From Planctomycetales bacterium (GTDB lineage: Bacteria; Planctomycetota; Planctomycetia; Pirellulales; Thermoguttaceae), in the NCBI GenBank assembly GCA_007119795.1, contig SKOZ01000004.1, forward strand, positions 1 through 34,877: a stretch of 34,877 nt of DNA. The letters run 5' to 3'. This document shows positions 1,406 through 34,877 of this stretch, in pieces. Position 1 is the stretch's first letter; every line of letters begins with the position of its first letter. Under the pieces are notes generated by a model that saw only the letters and a list, made by a program, of their open reading frames with translations, did no database searches and was not told where the DNA came from. The position numbers and the translations under genes were made by a program.

Positions 1406-3085
1406 TCAGTCGGCCACGGGGGCGAACTCCAAGCCGCCGAAGTTCAGCGGCGTGGCGTCGAACCGCACCCGCAAGACGCGCGTGCCCTCGGCGAGGCGCA
1501 CTCTCTGCGGCGGCAGTGGCTGGTAGTTGCCCCAATACTGGGTGCCCGTGGTGAAGCGGTGGTCGAACGAGAACTCGGCGAGCGGCTCATCGTCGACTTC
1601 CAAGAGGATGCGGTCCGGCTTCTCCGAGTAACCCTGCATGGCGTCGGGACGGGCGATGAAGGGGGTTACTTGGTAGTCGCCGGTCTCCCTCACCTGGACC
1701 GTGTAGAGGACCCACAGGCCGCGATGGCTGGCACCGATGCCGCTGGCGTTGGGCGAGGAGATCCCCTCCTCCCTCCGGAAGTCGAGGTTCCACGGAGGCC
1801 TTCCGTAGAGGTTGTCGTTCAGGTAGCTTCCGTACGCGGTGCCCTGCCCCCCTTCGTCGTAGTGGCCGGCGACGATGCGGCCGGGAACGTCCTGCGGCCG
1901 GCCCTCGAAGGGCCTGCTCGGCTCCCCCGACGGATTCTGAACCAGGAAGCTGAGCGACTCGGAGACGCCGATCAGCCCGTCGGAGTCGCGGGCCATGGCG
2001 ACGAGGACGTTCTCGCCGGTGTAGAGCTGGTCGGCGGGCAGGGTGAAGGCGGCCGCGGCCGCCCCCTCCGCGCCGCGGATCCGGCCGTTGATGAAGAGCA
2101 GCACTTCGGTCACCGAACCGCCGGACTTCTCGGCGGTGACCTCGAGGGTCACGCCGCGGCCGGCGGGAACGACGCGGGCCGGCTCACGCATCCGCATCGC
2201 CACGGCGGGCCTCTGCCGCCCGCCCAAGTCTTCTTCGTAGACCCGCACATAGTCGACCGCGAGCTGGTCGGGCCACTGGGCATCGTCGTAGTGGCCGAAA
2301 AAACCGCCCCTGCGCGGCTCGCGGAAGCAGCCGGAAATGAGCAGGTGCATCGGCTGGTTCGTCACCGGCACCTCGGTGTGGTCGAGGCGGAACGTCTCCT
2401 CGCCGTTGTGGTAGAAGATGTACTCCAGCGGCGTCCACTCCACGCCGATCACGTGGAAGGCGTCCCAGTCGTCCACGAGCACCGTGGAACGGTGGGAGAC
2501 CCGGTAGAGCCTGTTGCCCGCGAGCCTCTCCTGCGGACTGCGGTCGGCGGGAGCGGGCTCGAGCTGCGCGTCGAAATGCAGGCACTGCGCGTAATCGAGC
2601 TGCTCTTTCGGCTTGAAGAAATCCTCGAAGATGTCGATCTCCTGGCCCATCACGAAGGGGTTGGGCCCCGGCTCGACGCCGTGAAGCCACACGGCGCCCC
2701 ACCAGCCCGGCTCCCGCGTGAACCGGGCACGGGTTTCGACGTAGCCGTACGTGAAGTGGAAATTGCCCTTGGTCTCGATGCCGTGGTGATAGCGGTAGGT
2801 CCCCTCCTCGTCGCGGGTCACCTTGACGACGAAGTGCCCCCGGCCGTCGACGTCGGCATGGTCGTCGCAGAGCACGCCCTGGGCACCGTCCCAGGCGAAG
2901 GCCGGCATGCTCGAGCGGCGCCGCGTCCACTTGGACTCGTCCAGCTCGTCGCCCTCGAAGTCGTCGCTGAAGACGAGCCGCCACTGCTTGTGTTCCGGCG
3001 GACCGGCACCCCGCTCGGCGCCGTGGGAAGATTCGGCGAGGACCGCAAGCAGTCCCGCCAACACCACGACCAAGATGCGTTTCAT
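1406..3085 (-). CDS. GH16 family glycoside hydrolase with Ig-like and CBM6/35-like domains
   Basis: This is a 559-residue secreted protein. Residues 1-22 are a signal peptide (MKRILVVVLAGLLAVLA). Residues 35-285 are a GH16 jelly roll. It has the start LVFSDDFEGDELDESKW and the catalytic signature GQEIDIFEDF, with E149, D151 and E154 in the E-x-D-x-x-E spacing of the beta-bulge type (laminarinase, agarase and carrageenase relatives). Residues about 300-385 look like an Ig-like domain (VTLEVTAEKSGGSVTEV and a following FINGR). Residues about 400-559 resemble a CBM6/CBM35-like sugar-binding domain (VPGRIVAGHYDEGGQG at its start, FGGLEFAP at its end). It would cut beta-1,3/1,4-linked polysaccharide outside the cytoplasm; the substrate cannot be told from the motif. 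No strong ribosome site precedes the ATG at 3085. The upstream neighbour, 104 bases away, is a large FAD protein. Confidence 0.92.
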   Translation of the reverse strand: MKRILVVVLAGLLAVLAESSHGAERGAGPPEHKQWRLVFSDDFEGDELDESKWTRRRSSMPAFAWDGAQGVLCDDHADVDGRGHFVVKVTRDEEGTYRYHHGIETKGNFHFTYGYVETRARFTREPGWWGAVWLHGVEPGPNPFVMGQEIDIFEDFFKPKEQLDYAQCLHFDAQLEPAPADRSPQERLAGNRLYRVSHRSTVLVDDWDAFHVIGVEWTPLEYIFYHNGEETFRLDHTEVPVTNQPMHLLISGCFREPRRGGFFGHYDDAQWPDQLAVDYVRVYEEDLGGRQRPAVAMRMREPARVVPAGRGVTLEVTAEKSGGSVTEVLLFINGRIRGAEGAAAAAFTLPADQLYTGENVLVAMARDSDGLIGVSESLSFLVQNPSGEPSRPFEGRPQDVPGRIVAGHYDEGGQGTAYGSYLNDNLYGRPPWNLDFRREEGISSPNASGIGASHRGLWVLYTVQVRETGDYQVTPFIARPDAMQGYSEKPDRILLEVDDEPLAEFSFDHRFTTGTQYWGNYQPLPPQRVRLAEGTRVLRVRFDATPLNFGGLEFAPVAD

Positions 3086-10385: not shown

Positions 10386-11276
10386 TTAGAGCCAGACGAG
10401 GTCGGCCGCGGCCACGGCCGTAAGACCGATGCTCACCAAGGCATTGACGTGGAAGAAGGCCTCGTTGGCGCGCGTCAGGTCGTCGGGACGGACGAGGCGG
10501 TGCTCGTAGACGAGCAGGGCGGCGATGGCCGCCACGCCACCGTAGTAGAGCCAGCCGAATCCGGCGTAGACCTGCGGCAGCAGGAGGAGCAGAGCCAGCA
10601 TCACGGCGTGGCAGGCCGCCGCCAGGCGGAGCGCGCCGCTTACACCCAACCGCCCGGGGAGGCTCTGCAGCCCCTGCCGGCGGTCGAAATCGACGTCCTG
10701 GCAGGCATAGATGACGTCGAAGCCGGCGACCCAGAAGAGGACGGCGCCGCCGAGCACGAGCGGGGCCAACGCCACCTCGGGCCGCAGCGCCCCCCATGCC
10801 GCCAGCGGCGCCAGCATGAGCGCCCCGCCCAGCCAGAAATGGGAGAGGGCGGTGAACCGCTTGGTGAAGCTGTAAGCGAAGAGGAAGAGCAGTACGGGGA
10901 GGGCAGCGACCAGCGGTAAGGGATTGCGGGGCAGGAAGAGGAGCGTCGAGGCGACAAAGCCCGCGGCGGCCACGGCGGTGAAGAGCGCCACGCTGCGGGT
11001 CCCCAGGATGCCCGCCGGCAGGTGGCGGGTCCGCGTGCGGGGATTCGCGGCGTCGAACCGGCGGTCGGCCAGGCGGTTGAAGGCCATCGCGGCCGTGCGG
11101 GCGAAGACCATCGCCAGGAGGATGCCCGCAGCGTCCTGCCAGCGGAAGGGGAGCGGCGGGTCGGCGGCCGCATTCAGCCGCCACGCCATCAGCGCCGCCA
11201 GAAGGGCGAAGGGAAGCGCGAAGACGGTATGGCTGAAGCGAACCAACTCGAAGAAGTGGCGAATGCGTACCAGCAT
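10386..11276 (-). CDS. UbiA-family polyprenyltransferase (MqnP/4-hydroxybenzoate type)
   Basis: This 296-residue integral membrane protein has about eight to nine hydrophobic helices. It transfers a polyprenyl chain to an aromatic acid in quinone synthesis. Both magnesium/diphosphate motifs are intact: N67-x3-D71-x3-D75 (NRLADRRFD) and Y190-x3-D194-x-D196-x-D198 (YACQDVDFD). The short second loop and the sequence HLPAG resemble the UbiA-like subgroup used for menaquinone by the futalosine route (MqnP), which is the expected route in planctomycetes. That subtype is inference, because no mqn genes flank it. ATG 11276 has GAGG a few bases upstream. A double hairpin repeat lies in its leader. Confidence 0.88.
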   Translation of the reverse strand: MLVRIRHFFELVRFSHTVFALPFALLAALMAWRLNAAADPPLPFRWQDAAGILLAMVFARTAAMAFNRLADRRFDAANPRTRTRHLPAGILGTRSVALFTAVAAAGFVASTLLFLPRNPLPLVAALPVLLFLFAYSFTKRFTALSHFWLGGALMLAPLAAWGALRPEVALAPLVLGGAVLFWVAGFDVIYACQDVDFDRRQGLQSLPGRLGVSGALRLAAACHAVMLALLLLLPQVYAGFGWLYYGGVAAIAALLVYEHRLVRPDDLTRANEAFFHVNALVSIGLTAVAAADLVWL

Positions 11277-13594: not shown

Positions 13595-16054
13595 TCAATG
13601 CCCGTCGTGCCCGCCGGGCTGGAGCCAGAGCGACCGCCAGTAGGCCTGGTCGGCTTCGAAGACGTCGAGCGGCTCGCCCGCCGGATCGAAGGAGGCGGGG
13701 AGGACGCCGAACCGTACCAGCTCGCGGATGTACTGCCGGTTGGGGCGGAAGCCCGGCGTGCCGTAGCGGGGCTTGGCATCGAGCTCCTCTTTGCCCAGCT
13801 CGATGGTGGCTAGGAGCTGCCGGTAGTCGGGGTCGTCGGTATCGGCGAAGACGGCCCCGCAGCTCTCGTACCCTCCCGCCTCCGCGGCCAGCGGGCCCAG
13901 GAGCAGCGGGGAGAGATGGGGGCGGCTGAAGTTGAGCAGGATATGGCTGCCGAAGCGGGCCAGGGGATCGTTCTCGATGATCACCCGCTCGTGGATCCCC
14001 ACGGCCCGGTCGACGCCGCGGTCGGGCCGGGCCACCAGGGGCTGGAAGGGCAGGGCCCGGCCCCCTTCGTTCTGGCGATCGTCAAGCACGTGGCATTCAC
14101 CGCACCGCCGCGCCAGCAGGCTTTGGTTCTGGGAAAAGACCCGACCGGCAGCCCGCCCCGCGACCGCCTGGTCCTCAGCGTTCCGCAGCCCCGCGTAACT
14201 GCCCGCAAACGGCGCACTGCTCTCGATCCAGAGCCAAACGGTCCGCCATTCCTCGGGAGAAACGGTGACGTCGTGGTGGCCGCCGCTGAGCTTGTCCAAG
14301 AGAGGGCTGGCCGAGCTGCCGATGCTGCGGGGGGCGTAGTTGCCCAAGCCGTTACGGCCATCGGAAACCTGCAAGTGCGCCAGGAGGCTGAAATAGCTGT
14401 GCGACCAGGCCGGCCCCAGGTCGCCGGAGAGGACCACCCCACCCTCGCGCTGCCCGTGGTCGTGGCACTCCACGCAGTGGCGGTCGAGGATCGGCTGGAT
14501 GTCGCGGGTGAAATCGAGCACGTCGGGGAAGCCGTCGAACGGCTCGATGGGGCTGGGCGAGCGGCGAAACGCCTCGAGATCGGCCAGCTCGCCGAATTCG
14601 GGTGCGCCCGTCCGCGGTTCGTGACAGCCCACGCAGCCGGTTACCTCCCCGGGCATCACCGTGGTGAAGCTGTGCATCCGTTTCACCGAGAGGTCGTCCT
14701 CGTCGAGGGCCACGAAGAAGACCGGCCGCCCGGCGGGGACCTCGAAGTAGGCCGAGCCGTCCTCCTCGACGGGCACCGTTCCCAGGACGCGGTTGAGCGT
14801 GAACGTCCCCAGCCAGGAGACGAGGTCCGGCCCGCCGCTGAAGTTCACCTGCTTGGGCAGGTCCTCCATCACCAGCAGCCGGCGAATCTCACCCCGTTCC
14901 ACGCCCTCGAGGTGGCGGCTGCGGTTCACGTCGGCCAGGATCAACTCCCCCGTGGGCTGCTCCCAGTCGACGCGCGGCGGAATCACCGGTTCCCGGGAGC
15001 GCGGCCGGATGACGCGCGGCTCGTAGACCTCGCCCTCGCCCGGCCACGTGTAGATGGTTTCCATCTCCCCCGCCCGGTTCATGACGCGGATATCCTTGCC
15101 CTGGGCCACGAGGAAGACGTCTTCCGAGACCGGGTAGGGATCTTTGATCAGCGTATTCCAGCCCTGGTGGAGCGACCGGGCTGCTCCCAGGTCGTCCGGC
15201 CCGGCCTTGGGATTGATGATGGTAGTGAAGCCGCGGTGGTCGGTAACCCCGTGCCCCGGCGAGAAGGCGGCGAGAATCTCTTCCGTGCCGGGGATCGGCT
15301 TGGCGGCGATCATCACGATGCCCGGATGCATGTTGCCGTAGAAGGGGAGCTGGTTGGTGCCGTCGGGGTTCATCGTCCAGAGGTGGTGGAACTCCACCTG
15401 GCTGCGGTCGATGTACTCCCAGCGGGTGAAGAGGATGCGGCCGTCCGGGAGCACCCAGGGGGTGTTGTCGTGGGCCGTGTTGAAGGAGAGGCGGCGGATG
15501 CCGCTGCCGTCGGCCTCGCAGCGGTACACGGTGCCCACCTGCGTCATCCAGCAGGCCACCCAGCTCCGGCAGCGGGTGGAGACGAAGGCGATGCCGCCGT
15601 CGGGCAGGTAGGTCGGCTCGTAGTCGTCGTAGGGCCCGTCGGTGATCTGCCGCAGCCCGCTGCCGTCGAGCTGGATTTCGTAGAGGTGGTAGTGGTGCGT
15701 GCCGGCCTTGAGATAGGAGAAGATCGCCTTGGTGCCGTCGTAGTGCACCTGGGGATCGCGGATGGCGCCGCTTCCCGCGTCCAGCAGGACGGTCGTCTCG
15801 CCGGTGGCCGGGTCGAGCTTCACCAGCCGCCCGTGGGCCGGGCCGCCGTTGCCCGAGTGGGCCATGTGCGATTCGTCGTCGCAGAAGTAGCCGATGTTGG
15901 CGTACCAGTGGGTGTCGTCGTACGTCTCGCGGACGGCGAAGAGGATCGCGTCGGTGCCGGCGAGCGCCGTGCGCGCAGCCTCGCCGCGCGCGTCCCCCGC
16001 GGCCAGTACGAGGAGCATTGCCGGCCCGATCAGGAGTCTTTGCGGAGCGTTCAT
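13595..16054 (-). CDS. Three-heme c-type cytochrome with PD40/TolB-like propeller, hydrazine-synthase-alpha-like
   Basis: This is an 819-residue exported protein starting at ATG 16054, where a signal peptide (LLIGPAMLLVLAAGDARG) begins. Residues about 30-345 form a PD40 propeller with repeated blade ends (DGSGLRQITDG, LPDGGIAFVSTR, LPDGRILFTRW, NPDGTNQL). Then comes a middle domain at about 345-470 (VLGTVPVEEDGSAYFEVPAG) like that of hydrazine synthase alpha (HZS_alpha). Heme sites are C474-H478 (CVGCH), C527-H531 (CVECH) and C651-H655 (CGECH). The protein would be periplasmic or surface-attached and carry electrons. The residue four after H478 is Thr. From memory of the anammox enzyme structure that position is the Tyr heme ligand, so this is unlikely to be a hydrazine synthase. 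The true substrate is unknown. Confidence 0.85.
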   Translation of the reverse strand: MNAPQRLLIGPAMLLVLAAGDARGEAARTALAGTDAILFAVRETYDDTHWYANIGYFCDDESHMAHSGNGGPAHGRLVKLDPATGETTVLLDAGSGAIRDPQVHYDGTKAIFSYLKAGTHHYHLYEIQLDGSGLRQITDGPYDDYEPTYLPDGGIAFVSTRCRSWVACWMTQVGTVYRCEADGSGIRRLSFNTAHDNTPWVLPDGRILFTRWEYIDRSQVEFHHLWTMNPDGTNQLPFYGNMHPGIVMIAAKPIPGTEEILAAFSPGHGVTDHRGFTTIINPKAGPDDLGAARSLHQGWNTLIKDPYPVSEDVFLVAQGKDIRVMNRAGEMETIYTWPGEGEVYEPRVIRPRSREPVIPPRVDWEQPTGELILADVNRSRHLEGVERGEIRRLLVMEDLPKQVNFSGGPDLVSWLGTFTLNRVLGTVPVEEDGSAYFEVPAGRPVFFVALDEDDLSVKRMHSFTTVMPGEVTGCVGCHEPRTGAPEFGELADLEAFRRSPSPIEPFDGFPDVLDFTRDIQPILDRHCVECHDHGQREGGVVLSGDLGPAWSHSYFSLLAHLQVSDGRNGLGNYAPRSIGSSASPLLDKLSGGHHDVTVSPEEWRTVWLWIESSAPFAGSYAGLRNAEDQAVAGRAAGRVFSQNQSLLARRCGECHVLDDRQNEGGRALPFQPLVARPDRGVDRAVGIHERVIIENDPLARFGSHILLNFSRPHLSPLLLGPLAAEAGGYESCGAVFADTDDPDYRQLLATIELGKEELDAKPRYGTPGFRPNRQYIRELVRFGVLPASFDPAGEPLDVFEADQAYWRSLWLQPGGHDGH

Positions 16055-16246
16055 CACCGGGAAGTCTCCCATGAATGTGTCGCGTGGCGGCCCGCAGCGG
16101 CGTCGCTCCTTCGCGCGCCACCCCCCCATTTCCGGCCGCGTCGATGTCCCCTTCGATTATGTCAGCCCTGCGAGCGCCACACAACACCGCGGCCCCATCC
16201 GCGTAGTGCCGGTACCCTTCATCCCCCAGCCTCGACCGGCTGCCGC

Positions 16247-25903: not shown

Positions 25904-28771
25904 TCAGCGGGCGAAGTGGGCCTCGACGTCGATCCAGCCGTAGGCGGGTATCGCAACGGAGAGCTTGTCGCCGTCGATGGCCAGCTCGCCGGGGGCCTCG
26001 TCGGGCGCGCGGAAGCGGCGCGCGGCCTTCAGCGGGTAGAGGCATCGGAGCGCCGTGCGGACCTCGCGGCCCTGCGTCTCCAAAAGCCGCATGCGGACGC
26101 CCGCGACGCGGTCCTCGGCCAGCAGCGGCTCGGTGTGCGTGGCCAGCACGTTGCGGGCGCCGACGTGGAAGAGCCAGCCGTGGTCCGCCGGGGGGCGGGT
26201 GGCCTTGGCCAAATGGCTCGCCGGGGCCAGCCATTGCACGGCGGCGGCGGCGGGGTTGGCCAGGTCGATGCCGATCCCCAGGCGGAACCGCCGCTGCCGC
26301 TCACCGGCCGTCACCAGCAGGGTATCGAGCTTCCGCAGGCCGTAGCGGCGGTGGAAAGGGAGACCGCCGCAGAGGATCGTGGTGGCGGTCTTCTCGCGGC
26401 GCAGGTCGATGAAGAGCGGCGACTCGATCCGGTGGTTCTCCGTCGCCGTGACCACCCCGCCCAGGTTCCGCGTGAAGTCGACCGTCTCGTCGCTCCAGGC
26501 GAAGCGGGCCGCATAGTAGTGGTCCCAGGGGGGTCCGACCGGCGGGCGGTCGACGTCGAGCGTCACGTCGATATCGACGATCGGGCTCTGCCGCGGCAGC
26601 GTGGTCGTCTGGGTGTAGCGAGCCACGACGCTGCCGTTGCGGTCGAGGATCCTTCCCCGGCAGGTCACGGCGGCCGAAGCGGGGCCGGCGGCGGACTGCA
26701 TCTCGTCGAGGGCCATCACCGAGTAATCCTTCTCGAGCTCTTCCTCGTCCTCGGACCGGCGGCGCCCCGGCCGGGGCATCCGCAGGGCGAGCTGTTGGGC
26801 GATGCGGGCGCCGCGGCTCGAGTAGGCGGTGACGTTGCGGATGGCTCCGGTCGTCTCGCAGAAGCGGACTTCGAGGAACTCGTTGCGCATCCGTGGGCCC
26901 TCGACGAGCGGCGGCTCCTCGGGCGGCTTGCGCGAGAACCAGCTTCGCCGGCGGGGCCGCTCCCCCGCACCGGCACCGACCCAGGCGAAGCCGAAGGGAG
27001 GGATCTCGACGACCGCTTCCTTGGCGGCACCATCGCCCGCGGCCACGCGGACCGCGCCCGCCGTGTCGGGTACGCCCGCCAGGTCGCTCACGTCGATCCA
27101 GGTCCGGCGGGGCTGCGCGGTGGCGTTGAGCAGCAGGTGCCCCGGCGCCGGTGCCCGGCCCGCACCGGCTACGGCGGCGGCGAGGGCCCCCTCCGCGTCG
27201 GACACTGCAGCGTCGAGGCGGGTATCGAGGTCGCTCTCCTCGCCGCTTGCGGCTGCCAGCTGGTCCTCGATTTCCGTCGCCAGGGTCCGCAGTGCCGGCT
27301 CGCGCAGGTCCGTGCCGCCCAGGCCGCCTGCCGTAGCCGCTGCGGCGGCGAGGGTGAAGAGTGCGCGGGCGGCATCGAGCTTGGCGCGGCGCTGGTAGTA
27401 GCGGACATGGCGGGAGACGGGGTCGGTCTCGGCGGCGTTCACCATCTGACCCAGGTAGGGCGAGCGGTAGCCGTCGGGTCCGTAGTCGACCTGCTGGCCG
27501 GCGTGCTGGGTGCTCTCGAAGTACTTCTGCATCGAGGCGAAACGGCCCAGGACCGGCGAGTAGGCGTCCATCCGCCGGAGATCCTCGTACCAGCAGGTCG
27601 TCTGGCCGGGCCAATGCGCAAAGACCGCGGTGGCCACGTGGTCCAGGTCCATGACGTCGCCGAGCCGGGTGCAGAGCTTGAGGAACAGCTCGGGGCGATG
27701 CGCCTCGATGGGAAGACGGGTCAGGGCGTCGATCTGCGTACCGTCGAGCCCCCGCCAGCGGACCTTGCTCTGGTTTCCGGTGGGGAAGCGACCGTCGTCG
27801 AGCGTGAAGTGGAGGGCGCCGCGGAAGCCGGTCCGCGCGAGCACCTGGGGGAGTAGGGGCGAGAGGCCGAAAGGCCGGCGGGCGAAGACTCGAGGGCGCT
27901 GCCCGAGGTGGTGCTCGTAGACGGCCAGGCCCCGCTCGAGATTCTCGCGCACCGCCTCCACCGGCAGCAGCGGCAGCCGTGCGGGGCGATATTCGCCGCC
28001 GACGACGGTGGCTCGCCCCGCCTCGAGCGCCTCGCGGAGGGCGGCCAGGGTGGCGGGGTGCTCGGCGGCCATGATCTCGAGGTCTGCGGCGCTGAGCAGC
28101 AGGTTCGAAGGGGAGCTGCCGGCGAGCTGATCGATGAGGGCCTGGCCCATCGTCGTGGGGGCGACGAGGGTCAGGTCGACGAGGTGCGGCTCAACCGGGT
28201 AGAAGTACTCGCGGGCCTCGGTGAGGAGGTCGAAGGCCTTCTGCAGCCGTTTCTGCGACTCGGCGTCGTCGCCCGCGACGGAGGCCCGGGCGGCCGCCAC
28301 GGTCTCCTTCTCGAACTGCTGCTCGTCGAGGTTGCTCATGTAGCGCAACTGCCGCGTAAGGAGTTCCACCTGCAGCCGGCAGTAACCGAGGGCGAGGAAG
28401 TCGGCCGTCCGCAGGGGCTCTGCCTGGCCGTCTGCTCCGCCGAGCGACGCCAGGGCCGCGGCCACGATCGCCTCCCGATCGGCGAGGCCGCGGATCACGG
28501 CCATCTCCTCGCTTTCGGCGCGGGTGTCCCACTCGGCGGCCAACGCGCCCTCGCAAACCTGCGGAACGCACACCAGCGCCCCGGCGAGGCGGCCGGGCAC
28601 CTCCTCGGCCGATTGCCACCGGGGCACCACGCCGGCCGCGGCGACCAAACGGGGGTGGTAGAGCGCGGACCAGGCAGCCAGAAGCCCGCTGGCGTGCTCG
28701 GCGGAACGCTCCAGCGAGAGGCTTTCGAGGCTGTAACAGGGGAGCAGGACGAGGACTTTTTCGAGCTTCAT
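25904..28771 (-). CDS. GH38-like alpha-mannosidase-fold protein lacking catalytic residues
   Basis: The product has 955 residues from ATG 28771, with no clear signal peptide (MKLEKVLVLLPCYSLESL). The N-terminal half follows the GH38/57 barrel order: LLLSAADLEIM, VVGGEYRPARLPLLPVEAV, then a segment RPFGLSPLLPQVLARTGF. That segment corresponds to the D-P-F-G-H-S…QMGF nucleophile region of GH38. Here the nucleophile Asp is R299 and His is L303. The usual N-terminal H-x-D metal motif is also not seen; PCYSLESLSL stands there. The second half is beta-rich (DVTLDVDRPPVG, FHVGARNVLATHTEPLL), like the GH38 C-terminal domains. It therefore looks like an inactive or repurposed glycosidase; distant homology makes this an inference. 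No gene upstream is co-directional, so it is probably monocistronic. Confidence 0.65.
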   Translation of the reverse strand: MKLEKVLVLLPCYSLESLSLERSAEHASGLLAAWSALYHPRLVAAAGVVPRWQSAEEVPGRLAGALVCVPQVCEGALAAEWDTRAESEEMAVIRGLADREAIVAAALASLGGADGQAEPLRTADFLALGYCRLQVELLTRQLRYMSNLDEQQFEKETVAAARASVAGDDAESQKRLQKAFDLLTEAREYFYPVEPHLVDLTLVAPTTMGQALIDQLAGSSPSNLLLSAADLEIMAAEHPATLAALREALEAGRATVVGGEYRPARLPLLPVEAVRENLERGLAVYEHHLGQRPRVFARRPFGLSPLLPQVLARTGFRGALHFTLDDGRFPTGNQSKVRWRGLDGTQIDALTRLPIEAHRPELFLKLCTRLGDVMDLDHVATAVFAHWPGQTTCWYEDLRRMDAYSPVLGRFASMQKYFESTQHAGQQVDYGPDGYRSPYLGQMVNAAETDPVSRHVRYYQRRAKLDAARALFTLAAAAATAGGLGGTDLREPALRTLATEIEDQLAAASGEESDLDTRLDAAVSDAEGALAAAVAGAGRAPAPGHLLLNATAQPRRTWIDVSDLAGVPDTAGAVRVAAGDGAAKEAVVEIPPFGFAWVGAGAGERPRRRSWFSRKPPEEPPLVEGPRMRNEFLEVRFCETTGAIRNVTAYSSRGARIAQQLALRMPRPGRRRSEDEEELEKDYSVMALDEMQSAAGPASAAVTCRGRILDRNGSVVARYTQTTTLPRQSPIVDIDVTLDVDRPPVGPPWDHYYAARFAWSDETVDFTRNLGGVVTATENHRIESPLFIDLRREKTATTILCGGLPFHRRYGLRKLDTLLVTAGERQRRFRLGIGIDLANPAAAAVQWLAPASHLAKATRPPADHGWLFHVGARNVLATHTEPLLAEDRVAGVRMRLLETQGREVRTALRCLYPLKAARRFRAPDEAPGELAIDGDKLSVAIPAYGWIDVEAHFAR

Positions 28772-28849
28772 CAGGGATTCGGCGGGGTCTGGGGGTTCCA
28801 CCAAGGCTGGGGGGAGTGCCGTGGCGGGCAGCGAGAGTGCCGGTTGCCT

Positions 28850-29477: not shown

Positions 29478-31784
29478 ATGGCTCGCAATGACGCCGTGTG
29501 GGGTATCGACATTGGGCAGTGTTCGCTGAAGGCTTTGAAGTGCCGCTTGGACTCCGACGGCCTGGTGGCCGAGGCCTTCGACTTCATCGAGTATCCGAAG
29601 ATCCTCAGCCAGCCGGGGGCCGACCCTGCGGAGCTGGTTCGCGAGGCGCTCAAGCAGTTCCTCTCCAGGAACACGGTTCGCGGCTGCAAGGTGGCGGTCT
29701 CCGTGGCCGGGCAGAACGGACTGGCGCGATTCATCAAGCTCCCGCCGGTCGAGTCGAAGAAGATCCCGGATATCGTCCGTTACGAAGCCCGCCAGCAGAT
29801 CCCCTTCGACCTGCAAGACGTCGTCTGGGATTACCAGCGGATGGGTGTGGGCGCGGAAGAGGAAGGCTTCTCGCTCGACACGGAGATCGGGCTCTTCGCC
29901 ATGAAGCGGGATCAGGTCTACCGCGCCCTGGCGCCCTTCCGCGAGGCGGGCATCGAGGTGGACTTCATCCAGCTCACGCCGCTGGCCCTCTACAATTACC
30001 TCTCCTTCGACCAGTTCCGCGACCGTCCCGCCGTCGACGAATACGATCCGGACAGCCCGCCGCCCTTCACGGTCATTCTCTCGCTGGGGACCGATTCGAC
30101 CGACCTGGTGGTGACCAACGGCTACCGGGTGTGGCAGCGGAGCATCCCCATCGGCGGCAGCCACTTCACGAAGGCCCTGACCAAGGAGCTGAAGCTCACT
30201 TTCGCCAAGGCCGAGCACCTCAAGCGGAACGCCGGCGCGGCGCAGGATCCCAAGGCCGTCTTCCAGGCGATGCGTCCCGTCTTCAACGACCTGCTCACGG
30301 AGATCCAGCGGTCCATCGGCTACTTCAGCAGCATCCACCGCGGCGCGAAGATCGAGCGGGTGGTGGCCCTGGGTAACGCTATGAAGCTCCCCGGCCTCCG
30401 CCGCTACCTGCAGCAGAGCCTGGGCTTCGAGGTGGTGCGTGCCGAGGGTTTCCGCGGACTGCAGGGACCGGAAGTGGTCTCCTCGCCGATCTTCCGCGAG
30501 AACCAGCTCGCCTTCGGCGTCTGCTACGGCCTGGTGTTGCAGGCGTCGAGGAAGGCCGATCTGAAGACGAACCTCCTCCCCAAGGAGATCGTCCGCGACC
30601 GGCTCGTCCGGGAGAAGAAGCCGTGGGCCGCCGCGGCCGCCGCCGTGCTGCTGCTCGGCGGGGCGCTCTCGGTCATCGGGCAGGGCATCTACCTCCGCTC
30701 CGTCTCGGCCGAGCCCCTTCACGCCGAGGCCAGCCAAGCGGAGCAGATCGCCCAGCAGTCGTCCAGTCTGGTCAGCCAGGCCAGCCAGGCGGCCAGCCAG
30801 TTGGAAGAGTTCCAGAGGATCGGCGACAACCTGGTGGGCACCGTGGAGGGGCGGCTCCTCTGGATCGAGTTCCTTCATGCCCTCAACGCCTGTCTGCCCA
30901 GCGACGAGGGGGAGCGTCCCGAGGACATCTCCAGGCGGCGCGAACTCCACGTCGAGAGTTTCGACGTCGCCCGCATCGATTCGGCGACCAAGGAGAACTG
31001 GCTCGAGCACGTCCGCTCCAACGGTTGGCTGGAGGAGGAGGAAGACGCCGAAGAGGCCGGAGCGATGAGCGGTCTTTCCCTGGCCGGTGCGGGCACGGCG
31101 GCCACCACGGGCGCCGCCGATGATGAGGAAGAGCTTTACCTCGTCCAGTTGACCGGCCACCACTACCACAACCCCCCCCCGTCGCAGCCCCGGGCGTGGA
31201 CGGGCGGGGCGGAGTTCGTCCGCGAGACGATCTTGGCGAACCTGGAGAACACCGTCGTGGTGCTTCCCTCCTTCAACGAGGATGAGGATGCTGAGGAGCC
31301 GGAGGTAGTTACCATGGCGGAGTTGGGCGTCCGCTATCCGGTCCTGGTCGATCCGGGCAGCATCATAGCTTTCGAGTTCGACCCGCGCGAAGAAATGCGG
31401 CGGATGGGGGGGGGCGGCCGGGGCACCGCCGGCGCCGACTACGGCTACGAGGGCTACCAAGGCTACGGGCAGACCTATGGCGGACCAGGGGGGATGCCGC
31501 CGACGATGGGCAGCGGCGCCGGAAGCCAGATGGGGCGGGGCGGTCAGCCGGGGGCCGAGGCGAGGCCCATCGAGCTCCGCCGCTTTGATTTTACGGTCCA
31601 GTTCCTCTGGCAGCCGACGCCCCCTTCGAAGCGCGCCGAGATTCGCGAACAGATGCGCGAGACCGCCGAACCGGGTGAGTTCGACCCGGATGGTCTCGAC
31701 CCCGATCAATCCCCGGAGACGACGACCACCGCGGGCGTCGCCCCTGGGCGGCCCGGCCCCGCGGGGGGTGACGGCCGGGGCTGA
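29478..31784 (+). CDS. PilM-PilN fusion, type IV pilus inner-membrane platform protein
   Basis: The product has 768 residues from ATG 29478, with AAAGAGGTG upstream. Residues 1-355 are an actin-like PilM (WGIDIGQCSLKALK; IKLPPVESKKIPDIVRYEAR; SLGTDSTDLVV; ALGNAMKLPGLRRYL). Then T-N-L-L-P-K-E (364-370) matches the N-terminal I-N-L-L-P motif of PilN that docks in the PilM groove. A membrane helix follows (about 383-405) and a coiled coil rich in Gln, Ser and Ala (410-450). After this comes a periplasmic part with acidic and Gly/Tyr-rich linkers (about 655-690) and a late strand domain (RFDFTVQFLWQP). In other bacteria PilM and PilN are separate; here they are one chain. It would organise the pilus motor. 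It is followed by two related membrane proteins. Confidence 0.85.
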   Translation: MARNDAVWGIDIGQCSLKALKCRLDSDGLVAEAFDFIEYPKILSQPGADPAELVREALKQFLSRNTVRGCKVAVSVAGQNGLARFIKLPPVESKKIPDIVRYEARQQIPFDLQDVVWDYQRMGVGAEEEGFSLDTEIGLFAMKRDQVYRALAPFREAGIEVDFIQLTPLALYNYLSFDQFRDRPAVDEYDPDSPPPFTVILSLGTDSTDLVVTNGYRVWQRSIPIGGSHFTKALTKELKLTFAKAEHLKRNAGAAQDPKAVFQAMRPVFNDLLTEIQRSIGYFSSIHRGAKIERVVALGNAMKLPGLRRYLQQSLGFEVVRAEGFRGLQGPEVVSSPIFRENQLAFGVCYGLVLQASRKADLKTNLLPKEIVRDRLVREKKPWAAAAAAVLLLGGALSVIGQGIYLRSVSAEPLHAEASQAEQIAQQSSSLVSQASQAASQLEEFQRIGDNLVGTVEGRLLWIEFLHALNACLPSDEGERPEDISRRRELHVESFDVARIDSATKENWLEHVRSNGWLEEEEDAEEAGAMSGLSLAGAGTAATTGAADDEEELYLVQLTGHHYHNPPPSQPRAWTGGAEFVRETILANLENTVVVLPSFNEDEDAEEPEVVTMAELGVRYPVLVDPGSIIAFEFDPREEMRRMGGGGRGTAGADYGYEGYQGYGQTYGGPGGMPPTMGSGAGSQMGRGGQPGAEARPIELRRFDFTVQFLWQPTPPSKRAEIREQMRETAEPGEFDPDGLDPDQSPETTTTAGVAPGRPGPAGGDGRG

Positions 31785-31814
31785 CGATAACCCTACCATT
31801 GGGAGATGGGATCG

Positions 31815-33668
31815 ATGGACCAGTTGAACACTGTCCTCGCACAAATCCGCAAGCACCACTTCTGGGTGCTCGTCGGCGTGGTCGTCGTCGTCGGCTTGGC
31901 GGCAACGTTCATGGCCGCCGCGGAGCGGGCCGGAGTGGCCCAGGAAAAAGAGCGCACCCTGGAGAACGCCCACGACGGGCTCTCCCGCGTGGCGGGTCTG
32001 CCCGATCACCCCAATCAGGAGGTGATCAACGCCATCCAGGAGCGGCGCGACGAGCAGGCGCGCGAAGTCTTCCAGGCCTGGGAGTCGCTCTACGCGGAGC
32101 AGCGCGCCAACTATCCTTGGCCGCGCGCGCTCAGTCCCCAGTTCCGGGACATGATCCGCAACCGCCGCGGCCCCCAGGAACGGATTCCCCCGAGGTACCG
32201 CGAGGAGTACCAAAACTACGTCACCTACTATTTCGCCACCCTCTTCGACGAGGTGGGCGTGATGCGCCGCGAAGATGAGCCCTTTGAGGCGGCGCAGCAG
32301 ACGCGGCTGCAGCGGGGAGGGTACACTGGCGGCATGGGGAGCTCCCCTGGCGGGGGTATGAGCGGTTACCCTGGTAGCGGCATGGATTCGTATTCCGGTA
32401 GCATGGACTCCTATGGCGGCGGCTACCCGGGCGAATACGGCGGCTCCCAGTACGGTTCCGGCGGCAGGGGCCCCGGCGAGAGCCGCATGATCGGCACCTT
32501 CGAGTGGGACGCCAACGACCGCAACCGCTTCGTAGACCGTTTCTTCTGGCAGAGAACGCCAAACACCCTGCAGATTTGGCTCTGCCAGGAGGATCTCTGG
32601 ATCTACGAAACGCTCCTGCGGATCATCCGCAACACGAATGAGGGGGCTACGAGCAACTACAACGCCACGGTGAAGCGGGTCGAGCGGCTGGCCATAGGGT
32701 CCGATGCCGCCCCGGCCTTTGCCACCCTTACGGGGGCCTCCACAGGCGGTATGGCCAGCCCGTACGGCGGTTCCGGCTCCGGATACCCGAGCGGTTCCAT
32801 GCCGGGCGGTCCCGCGATGGGGAGCGGTTCCGGCTCCGGATACCCGGGCGGTTCCATGCCGGGCAGTTCCGCAGCGGGGAGCGGTCCCGGGGGGGCCACG
32901 CGCAGCACCGCGGGGGCGGCAGATGCCGATGAATTGATCCGCCGGCAACTGCTCAGCTTCCGCTACGTGGACGAGACCGGCACGCCGCTGGCCAGCGATG
33001 ACGAGATGCCCTATCCCCAATTCAAGATGGTACCCGTCCACATGCGGCTGGTGGTCGATCAGCGTCGGTTGCCCCGGTTGCTGGTCGAGTGCGCCAATTC
33101 GCCGATGCCGGTCGAGGTGCGGGCCGTGAAGATCAATCCCGAGCAAGGCCCAATCAACCTCCAGGCCTTCCGGGGGCGGACGACCACCGCGGGGCCGGGA
33201 GCCATGATGGGCGGCATGGATAGCGGCAGCTATGGCGGTTCCGGATACCCCGGGTCAATGGGACCAATGGGTGGTATGGGAGGTATGGGTGGGCCTGGCC
33301 AGCAGATGGGGAGCGGTAGGCGCGGGACGACGGGGAGCCGTACCCGCCTCCCCGCGTCGGCGAGCAGCTTTGACGCCGTTGTAGAAATCCTCGGTATCGT
33401 GCTGATCTACGAACCGCCCGACCTGGAGGGACTCGAGGCACAGGGCGCCACCATCGACGAACTGATCGGCGAGGCGGAGGAGGAGGGGTTCGCAGAGCCG
33501 ATCGACCTGCCCGAAGAAGAAATCGTCGACGAGGTTCCAGACCTCGCGAATGGTGAGGAGCCTCCGGCGGCTCCTCCCGGCCAGCCCGCCCCGGGACCGC
33601 CCAACGCTGGCCAGCCGCTTCAGCAAGGGCAGCCGGCCCAACCCGGTCTGCCCGCGGGGACCCCGTAA
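31815..33668 (+). CDS. Single-span membrane protein of pil operon with PilO-like region and Gly/Tyr/Ser-rich inserts
   Basis: The product has 617 residues from ATG 31815, which has GGGAG about ten bases upstream; ATG 31806 sits too close to that site. A short cytoplasmic N-terminus is followed by one membrane helix (about 17-34, WVLVGVVVVVGLAATF). Then come a helical stalk to about 160, a first Gly/Ser/Tyr/Met linker (168-222), a folded part (RMIGTFEWDANDRNRFVDRF) and a second linker (310-365) holding a 19-residue duplication. The following MVPVHMRLVVDQRRLPRLLV, continuing with ECANSPMPVEVRAVKI, resembles the ferredoxin-like fold of PilO by pattern. A third linker, then VVEILGIVLIYEPP, and a Pro/Gln-rich tail end the protein. 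No named family was recognised. Position directly after pilMN suggests a PilO-type role. Confidence 0.7.
   Translation: MDQLNTVLAQIRKHHFWVLVGVVVVVGLAATFMAAAERAGVAQEKERTLENAHDGLSRVAGLPDHPNQEVINAIQERRDEQAREVFQAWESLYAEQRANYPWPRALSPQFRDMIRNRRGPQERIPPRYREEYQNYVTYYFATLFDEVGVMRREDEPFEAAQQTRLQRGGYTGGMGSSPGGGMSGYPGSGMDSYSGSMDSYGGGYPGEYGGSQYGSGGRGPGESRMIGTFEWDANDRNRFVDRFFWQRTPNTLQIWLCQEDLWIYETLLRIIRNTNEGATSNYNATVKRVERLAIGSDAAPAFATLTGASTGGMASPYGGSGSGYPSGSMPGGPAMGSGSGSGYPGGSMPGSSAAGSGPGGATRSTAGAADADELIRRQLLSFRYVDETGTPLASDDEMPYPQFKMVPVHMRLVVDQRRLPRLLVECANSPMPVEVRAVKINPEQGPINLQAFRGRTTTAGPGAMMGGMDSGSYGGSGYPGSMGPMGGMGGMGGPGQQMGSGRRGTTGSRTRLPASASSFDAVVEILGIVLIYEPPDLEGLEAQGATIDELIGEAEEEGFAEPIDLPEEEIVDEVPDLANGEEPPAAPPGQPAPGPPNAGQPLQQGQPAQPGLPAGTP
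32769..32882 (+). repeat. Two tandem 57-base repeats inside the coding region
   Basis: Units are 32769-32825 and 32826-32882. They encode GSGSGYPSGSMPGGPAMGS and GSGSGYPGGSMPGSSAAGS. The copies differ at only a few bases, so the duplication is recent or kept alike. It lengthens a disordered linker. Confidence 0.85.
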
Positions 33669-33709
33669 CTTCTCAACAGGCGTGCAGGCGAAGAAAAGGA
33701 ATCGGTGCC

Positions 33710-34877
33710 ATGAAAGTCAAGTTGAACTTGGATAAGAATGCAATCGCTGCATTCCTTCTCAGCCATGTTGAGAAGGTCGCCTTCGGCGTCGTGGTGGTGG
33801 TCTTCGCCGTGCTGGCGGTAAGGGGATTCCAGGGCCGTTATGAGAAGACGCCCGAAGATTTCCGCAGCCTGGCCAGCCAGGCCGAAGAGAACATCAATCG
33901 ACCGAAGTCGGACATCGACGCCCGCGTGGTGAGCTATCCGGAGATCGCCGGACGGCTGCGGACGCCGGTTTCCGTAGATCCGTACCGTTTTGCCCGCCCC
34001 TGGCAGCGTCCCCTGATAGACCAGTTGGCCAAACGGGGCGAGCCGCCCTTGCTTCCGGTCAGGGAGCTGCGCATAGCCACCGGCAAGGGTGTGCGCGGCG
34101 GTCCGGGGGGGATGACCGGCGGATACGATTACGGCAGCACCGGTTCGTACGACTACGGCGGAAGCAGCCCCTCTGGCCCGGGATCCTTCCCGGGCGTCGT
34201 CGGGCGGACCGGCCAGACCCGGGAGGTCCCCGACCGCGGGGTCCGCTGGGTGGTCATCACTGGTCTGATCCCCATCGAGGCGCAGCGCCAGGCCTACGAA
34301 GACGCCTTCCGCGATGCCCAAGGCTACGACCCGACCCGCGACATCCCCAATTACGTGGGGGCGGTGATCCAGCGCGCGGAGGTCGATCCCCTGCGGCCGG
34401 ATGCCGAGGTGCGGTGGGTTCACGTGGGGACCCATCCGAGGAGCACCGCCCCCGGTCGGTATGCTGTCGGCGGTTCTGGTATGGGCTACGGTTCTGGCGG
34501 CGGCTATCCGGGGGCGATGATGCCCGATTCCGAATACGGAGGTTACGGGAGTGGAGGAATGGCGGGACAAATGGGAATGGGAATGGGGATGGCGGGACGG
34601 GGCGACATCCTACCGGTCTTCCGCCACCAGGCCCTCACCGCCGCGCTCCCGCAGGTCTCGGGCACGGTCTTCGGCTCGGAGATCGCCCACCCGCCGACGA
34701 TTCCCCTCGCCGCCGACATGACCCCCGAGCAGATTCAGGCCCTCCAGCCCCGCATCGAGCGGCCGATGGCAACGCCTGAGGATGAGGAGTTCGACCCGAC
34801 CGACCCCTTCCAGATGGAGCGGCAGCGCCGCCAGCCGGGCCGTTCGCCGATGCAGCAGGGGATGCACGATGATCCCC
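33710..34877 (+). CDS. Third membrane protein of the pil operon (3' end outside window)
   Basis: This frame is open from ATG 33710 (AAAAGGAATCGG upstream) to the window end, 389 codons with no stop. Residues about 22-40 form a membrane helix (VAFGVVVVVFAVLAVRGF) after a charged N-terminus. Next are a helical region (TPEDFRSLASQAEENI), a Gly/Tyr linker at about 128-155 (GGYDYGSTGSYDYGG), and a folded segment RWVVITGLIPIEAQRQAYED. Then follow NYVGAVIQRAEVDP, and a second low-complexity stretch with Gly, Tyr and repeated Met-Gly at about 248-303. The design repeats that of the preceding gene. No known family was recognised, and it starts 41 bases after the previous stop, so it is in the same operon. 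It may be a PilP or PilO counterpart. Confidence 0.8.
   Translation, partial: MKVKLNLDKNAIAAFLLSHVEKVAFGVVVVVFAVLAVRGFQGRYEKTPEDFRSLASQAEENINRPKSDIDARVVSYPEIAGRLRTPVSVDPYRFARPWQRPLIDQLAKRGEPPLLPVRELRIATGKGVRGGPGGMTGGYDYGSTGSYDYGGSSPSGPGSFPGVVGRTGQTREVPDRGVRWVVITGLIPIEAQRQAYEDAFRDAQGYDPTRDIPNYVGAVIQRAEVDPLRPDAEVRWVHVGTHPRSTAPGRYAVGGSGMGYGSGGGYPGAMMPDSEYGGYGSGGMAGQMGMGMGMAGRGDILPVFRHQALTAALPQVSGTVFGSEIAHPPTIPLAADMTPEQIQALQPRIERPMATPEDEEFDPTDPFQMERQRRQPGRSPMQQGMHDDP

Follow-up and report, generated by a model that had tools for sequence, protein, structure and literature searches.

Which machine is served by a planctomycete protein that joins PilM to PilN in one chain, and what is the role of the Gly-rich segments that recur in it and in its two neighbours? 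The question was raised by a 34,877-nucleotide stretch of DNA, hereafter the window (positions 1 to 34,877 of contig SKOZ01000004.1, assembly GCA_007119795.1), from a Planctomycetales bacterium of the Thermoguttaceae. Near its end lies the gene for this fusion, here called PilMN, followed by two open reading frames (ORFs), ORF2 and ORF3, the latter truncated by the end of the window. The three genes probably belong to a type IV pilus machine of planctomycetes and encode its alignment module in the inner membrane, a homologue of the Amuc_1101/Amuc_1100 set of Akkermansia. The PilM domain, the PilN-type part (through intermediates), the gene order, the fold of ORF2 and the co-variation of the loops were computed, and the docking in cis, the ATPase partnership, the role of ORF3 and the function of the loops were inferred.

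An earlier note, made from the letters of the window, had described one chain with PilM, the motif TNLLPKE, a membrane helix and a periplasmic part, two further single-span proteins close behind it, and low-complexity inserts in all three. This description was borne out (Table 1); the partners have one N-terminal hydrophobic stretch each, seen by eye and lying within long model helices (of ORF2, and of ORF3 from the closest related locus).

A PilM-PilN fusion

The N-terminal part of PilMN matched the Pfam PilM family PF11104 (E 1.2e-28; score 100.5, cut-off 27), and the chain exceeded the cut-off of TIGR01175 (142 bits, cut-off 133). After PilM it carries TNLLPKE, KKPW, a hydrophobic stretch and the periplasmic part; KKPW, at the start of the hydrophobic helix, was invariant across the 23 aligned sequences (alignment A1: the window and 22 of the 120 listed relatives). 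By eye, PilMN thus has the PilN arrangement of an NLLP-type motif ahead of one hydrophobic helix. The motif aligned with the NLLP of 5eou, a single-chain PilM-PilN construct, and since the linker from PilM differs in length by only one residue, self-docking of PilMN is plausible. The earlier note had proposed a self-docked platform, of which the fusion within a pilus-type platform stands and the docking keeps this conditional status. Compared by way of short forms, the C-terminal part reached separate PilN at 96.4 and then 99.0 (129 columns). The best NCBIfam match was Amuc_1101 (NF045709, E 3.5e-64, residues 1-476). The analysis supports reading PilMN as a fusion of PilM and PilN that belongs to a platform of the pilus type.

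The fusion itself is unsurprising, and the co-varying loops that the three proteins share are the part worth following. The earlier note had taken the fusion to be unusual, but PulL/GspL and EpsL have been described as PilM+PilN fusions (PMC10191384, PMC6325625; these and all other papers are cited for the parts of their text that were available), and the PilMN complex has been called an orthologue of GspL (PMC4471445).

Distribution and gene order

Of the 7997 candidates scored in a protein search with PilMN, 7029 had E ≤ 1e-3. The best 120 were 669-900 residues long, and every organism-bearing name among them was planctomycete. A genome scan confirmed at least 566 stretches, and 80 loci were kept. 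A unique or chance fusion was rejected, PilMN being widespread.

Where 1.5 kb or more of downstream sequence was available, ORF2 was next to PilMN in 66 of 68 loci (median gap 48 bases); L016 and L042 missed this strict rule only through an ORF call running upstream over PilMN. ORF3 followed ORF2 in all 53 loci with at least 4 kb downstream, and the gene order that the earlier note had suggested looking for is widespread in planctomycetes. Members of the sets A4, A5 and A6 were picked by hand, partly by position after PilMN and not all by a significant match of their own.

At L006, the nearest relative of this region (best PilMN segment 71% identical), the order was PilMN, ORF2, ORF3 and a 1484-residue secretin with weak tetratricopeptide repeat (TPR) matches below cut-off. 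The downstream secretin that the earlier note had proposed looking for was thus found directly next in some relatives. Of the 20 genes taken as large secretin or fourth gene, 19 matched secretin models, with the Amuc_1098 model included far under its cut-off. In 8 of the 18 related genomes PilMN shared its contig with a large secretin no more than 15 kb away (coordinates read by eye); in the rest the secretin was more distant, on another contig or unrecognised.

Twenty regions from across the phylum were compared. In 15 of them PilMN was followed by an ORF2-like gene whose product has a hydrophobic stretch near its N-terminus. The other five (L154, L155, L159, L163, L168), with an antisense frame or nothing at the place of ORF2, were left unscored. 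An ORF3-like gene was third in nine of the 15 scored regions, with L165 ambiguous. Of the genome matches to NF045709, the best 30 extended to model positions 438-537, which lie beyond the PilN motif; their frames were 536-800 residues long.

The two partners

The structure model of ORF2 shows an N-terminal hydrophobic helix, long helices and a ferredoxin-like domain carrying insert loops, that is, the long helices and alpha-beta-beta-alpha-beta-beta domain of a PilO-type fold. Its sole N-terminal hydrophobic stretch sits in the long model helix 18-64 (span by eye). The structural alignment with Amuc_1100 covers model residues 74-537 and crosses tracts 1 to 3 of Table 1. Profiles of long and short ORF2 agree with a probability of 98.4; short forms (n = 18) have 283-419 residues and 17 of them lack a Gly-rich tract, and ORF2 has 408-731 in 55 complete loci from the window's lineage, taken here as the loci with titles such as Pirellulales, Thermoguttaceae or Planctomycetaceae. 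The tracts explain why ORF2 of the window is so much longer than the 326-position Amuc_1100 model NF038287, against which it scored 11.6 bits (equivalog cut-off 180). As judged from the model, ORF2 is PilO-type and closest to Akkermansia Amuc_1100. The idea that an unrelated protein had been swapped in for PilO was rejected, and with it the earlier note's claim of replacement, ORF2 being itself PilO-type.

ORF3 of the window begins with HVEK at the N-terminus and a hydrophobic helix. The model of the full-length L006 protein has its hydrophobic stretch in helix 31-62 and consists of a ferredoxin-like part and an FnIII-like beta domain, separated by low-confidence residues 344-416. Long and short ORF3 profiles agree (probability 98.1), and among the NCBIfam matches of ORF3 no Amuc-named model was found. 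In Blastopirellula marina, two prepilin-like genes, each with GFTLVELLVVIAIIAIL near its start, were noticed just downstream of ORF3 (L077, 16361-18609, minus strand).

Other pilus and secretion clusters

Separate pil genes elsewhere in the genome, which the earlier note had named as speaking against its replacement platform, do occur in relatives. Pfam matches in the 18 related genomes were PilO in 13, PilN in 8 and PilM and secretin in all 18; more than one PilM match was found in 15, so that many genomes keep several PilM-type machines. PilP gave no match in the 18 genomes, but the same search was silent in all 14 controls. In the closest relative these matches sit together in a second cluster, L081, which encodes a pseudopilin-like protein, PilM (351 residues), PilN (259), GspM-type (190) and GspC-type (228) proteins with weak matches, a GspD/PilQ-type secretin (724), a PilB/GspE-type ATPase (575) and a platform-like protein (398). 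In a PilM tree its PilM grouped with those of 11 similar loci, and this clade was distinct from the 45 fused PilM (local support 0.998).

These clusters bear on the rival that PilMN, ORF2 and ORF3 are GspL, GspM and GspC of a type II secretion system (T2SS)-like platform that secretes enzymes and has no retractable pilus. GspL has the same fused layout (PMC10191384), and the GspM model was weakly matched by 2 of the 18 short ORF2 (best 0.0018). We consider this rival unlikely, since PilMN had no match to the GspL model TIGR01709 at E ≤ 0.1, the frames called in the 15 kb at L006 included no ATPase gene, and L081, with its own secretin and PilB/GspE-type ATPase, is the better T2SS candidate.

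A PilT-type ATPase, taken here as the mark of retraction, was found in relatives only, for example at L083, where a PilT-PilB-PilC-pilin cluster stands on a contig with no PilM, PilN or PilO matches. A PilB-PilT-PilB triad was present in at least 13 of the 18 genomes (rows read by eye, PilT called by size and place). As the PilB-PilT-PilC cluster has no PilMNO of its own, the fused module is by elimination its likely platform. In the pilus alignment module so envisaged, the PilN-type motif would dock on the PilM body in cis, in a GspL-like layout, and ORF2 would act as the PilO-type, Amuc_1100-like partner. ORF3 may be a bitopic partner whose FnIII-like domain makes the connection with the large secretin, the gene for which comes next in some relatives, and the whole would work with the PilB-PilT-PilC cluster located elsewhere.

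Further sets were noticed on the way. A PilN Pfam match lay in longer frames of 529-542 residues in 3 of the 18 genomes (L089, 5602-7167, minus strand; L096, 2106-3680, plus; L097, 2294-3859, plus), next to a frame that contains a secretin and to a bitopic protein of small size. These longer frames may represent another GspL-like fusion, belonging to a third machine, and the PilM tree covers loci other than these three. Contig C55 of genome G011 (L091, L092) holds two PilN/PilO/secretin sets, and the genome has the fused module as well.

Low-complexity loops and their co-variation

Tracts were called in 20-residue windows with G+Y+M+S+P+Q of at least 65% and G of at least 20%. Co-variation was studied in 55 complete loci, excluding the window (25 of the 80 were cut or lacked a partner). 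The PilM domain had no tract residues in any of the 55, and the means for ORF2 and ORF3 were 115 and 106. The tract contents of ORF2 and ORF3 were strongly correlated (rho 0.87) and remained so after phylogenetic contrasts (r 0.77, p 1e-11, 54 contrasts), with no part played by GC content and r 0.73-0.80 across five tract definitions. In make-up, too, ORF2 and ORF3 of one genome were closer (distance 0.126) than permuted pairs (0.212; none of 5000 permutations as low; 39 loci), and in 26 of the 39 loci the make-up was nearer to that of the own partner than to that of the nearest relative (p 0.0025). The periplasmic parts of ORF2 and ORF3, and less so of PilMN, have grown Gly-rich disordered loops in the window's lineage. 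Since amount and make-up change together, we infer that the loops of the three proteins meet in the assembled complex.

It is quite conceivable, though we lean the other way, that the tracts arose neutrally by slippage and serve no joint function, and that they co-vary through remaining kinship, a mutational climate common to the genes, a trend in periplasmic proteins across the genome or exchange between neighbouring genes. A 57-base tandem repeat lies inside tract 2 of ORF2 in the window (32767-32890), ORF2 and ORF3 are adjacent, and in one locus they have a 95-base word in common. The persistence of the correlation after contrasts and GC correction stands against this, as does the closeness of make-up to the own partner. 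The longest DNA word common to ORF2 and ORF3 had a median of 13 within and 12 between loci, which gives little support to DNA exchange as the source of the matching loops. Two controls were used. A divergent glycoside hydrolase (GH) neighbour (29 loci; tracts non-zero in 0-16 of them, by setting) did not co-vary (r -0.18 to 0.02 with ORF2, -0.23 to 0.00 with ORF3). The secretin of a separate cluster was also flat (rho 0.28, p 0.33), a weak control with 14 genomes only, which leaves the slippage explanation some room.

The earlier note had instead suggested long linkers that possibly span an enlarged periplasm. Planctopirus limnophila is reported to have such a periplasm (PMC11131199), and residues 344-416 of L006 ORF3 do separate two predicted domains. 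However, most internal tracts leave and re-enter one domain; tracts 2 and 3 of ORF2 (in the model) and the PilMN tract (in the alignment only) interrupt a single domain and so cannot serve as spacers across the periplasm, and the Amuc_1100 match runs across the ORF2 tracts. Spacing was therefore rejected as the main role of the tracts, and the linker explanation as a whole is very unlikely.

Points against the assignment

Several results weigh against the assignment to an Amuc_1101/Amuc_1100-like pilus module. PilMN had no match to Pfam PilN (PF05137) at E ≤ 0.1, and long PilMN C-termini compared directly with separate PilN reached only 37.7. Against NF045709 it scored 217.7 bits, below the equivalog cut-off of 650; the model matched 293 of 294 planctomycete genomes, none above cut-off, and as 8 of 14 control genomes matched too, a bare match is not specific. 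At the same E threshold no Pfam family matched ORF3 or ORF2 of the window, PilO (PF04350) included. The Foldseek match of ORF2 to Amuc_1100 was not significant (E 0.39), Amuc_1100 was missing from the profile search with long-form ORF2, and the top row had an rmsd of 6.6. NF038287 matched 10 of the 59 long ORF2 and 4 of the 18 short ones, all far under cut-off, and in whole genomes gave weak matches in 8 of 294 and in an unrelated control, B. subtilis. The Akkermansia link draws on family models, the PDB and published locus tags.

Gene order adds to this. Beyond L006, the secretin came immediately after ORF3 in only 4 of 15 loci compared (L057, L064, L024, L063), and at L051 and L003 the genes tested at this place were not secretins. 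In 5 of the 15 scored phylum-wide regions (L150, L151, L152, L156, L164) a secretin-type gene followed ORF2 directly, so ORF3 is not universal. Its absence from some lineages and the often non-adjacent secretin slightly lowered our confidence. The loops of PilMN were also less tightly coupled than those of the partners, with r 0.22-0.48 to ORF2 (not significant at two of five settings) and 0.29-0.43 to ORF3.

Features of the window

Table 1. Coordinates of the PilMN region and of other proteins in the window.
Feature	Position	Strand	Evidence
PilMN fusion, 768 aa, stop codon included	29478..31784	+	ORF call and profile matches
PilM domain, aa 9-355 of PilMN	29502..30542	+	PF11104; PDB PilM chains 3jc8, 2ych, 5eou, 5eox
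PilN-type docking motif TNLLPKE, aa 364-370 of PilMN	30567..30587	+	sequence; alignment to 5eou NLLP
Hydrophobic helix of PilN part, about aa 380-404 of PilMN	30615..30689	+	by eye
PilMN Gly/Tyr/Met-rich tract, aa 642-698, flanked by two conserved PilN-type stretches	31401..31571	+	tract rule and alignment
ORF2, 620 aa, Amuc_1100/PilO-type partner (from model)	31806..33668	+	ORF call, structure model, profile comparison
ORF2 tract 1, aa 162-233, separating long helices from fold	32289..32504	+	tract rule and model
ORF2 tract 2, aa 306-370, within fold	32721..32915	+	tract rule and model
ORF2 tract 3, aa 457-514, flanked in the model by strands 436-444 and 523-535	33174..33347	+	tract rule and model
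ORF2 C-terminal tail, Pro/Gln/Gly-rich, aa 583-620	33552..33665	+	tract rule
ORF3, first 389 aa, no stop, truncated by window end	33710..34877	+	ORF call
ORF3 tract 1, aa 123-171	34076..34222	+	tract rule
ORF3 tract 2, aa 242-303	34433..34618	+	tract rule
966-aa protein, divergent neighbour of PilMN	25904..28804	-	GH38/GH57-type matches
844-aa protein	13595..16129	-	hydrazine synthase alpha middle domain (PF18582, E 3.6e-21); weaker PD40 match
Prenyltransferase of UbiA type	10386..11276	-	PF01040, E 6.4e-46
Protein with glycosyl hydrolase family 16 match	1406..3085	-	E 1.1e-7

The GH38/GH57-type neighbour was found within 1.5 kb of PilMN in 39 of the 66 loci having enough upstream sequence, and a connection between the pilus and glycans is possible.

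Comparison with known systems

No description of the planctomycete module was found in the literature as judged by titles and the openings of abstracts, subscription journals being mostly outside the coverage. Planctomycetes have large crateriform structures with 12-nm pili-like, dextran-binding fibres, which are said to appear to form press-stud-like links between the membranes (PMC5394234). It is a speculative and quite unlikely proposal that PilMN, ORF2, ORF3 and the secretin form the core of these pits and fibres, a glycan-capture pilus as in Akkermansia MUL2, with the loops of the window's lineage as a shared disordered periplasmic collar round the filament. If true, it would make planctomycete uptake machinery directly testable, and strains of P. 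limnophila without three pilQ-like genes already exist (PMC11958385). More generally, ORF2 and ORF3, both without Pfam matches, gain a place in a known machine, Amuc_1100 is placed within a wider pilus-platform family, and disordered loops co-varying across partners offer a testable sign of joint evolution of low-complexity segments in membrane machines.

The nearest named system is the Amuc_1098-1102 (MUL2, pili-like) cluster of Akkermansia muciniphila. Amuc_1101 is the best family match of PilMN, ORF2 appears from its model to share the fold of Amuc_1100, and some relatives encode a large secretin with weak TPR matches, compared with Amuc_1098, an outer-membrane secretin with N-terminal TPRs (PMC4960237). 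The Amuc_1098-1101 order (PilMN, Amuc_1100-like, third gene, secretin) is seen in L006 and other relatives, though some relatives lack the neighbour; for Akkermansia it comes from published locus tags, strand not included, and the window stops inside ORF3. As a difference, the curated cut-offs of the Amuc families were all missed. Amuc_1100 is labelled 'PilO' in one paper, which reports similar sequences mainly in Verrucomicrobia (PMC11573778), and was studied for host effects (PMC5332112); the MUL2 set (amuc_1099-1102) is described from Verrucomicrobiota and has been linked with attachment (PMC13174399).

With GspL/PulL of the T2SS the module shares the single chain holding PilM and PilN; it differs in the missing GspL match of PilMN and ATPase of L006, and its fused PilM fall outside the clade of separate PilM from second clusters. 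With the PilM-PilN-PilO-PilP complex of type IVa pili it has in common a PilM domain, a PilN-type motif, a probable PilN-type part, a PilO-type partner and, in some relatives, a secretin, whereas PilM and PilN are here fused and joined by a large ORF3 partner with a predicted FnIII-like domain.

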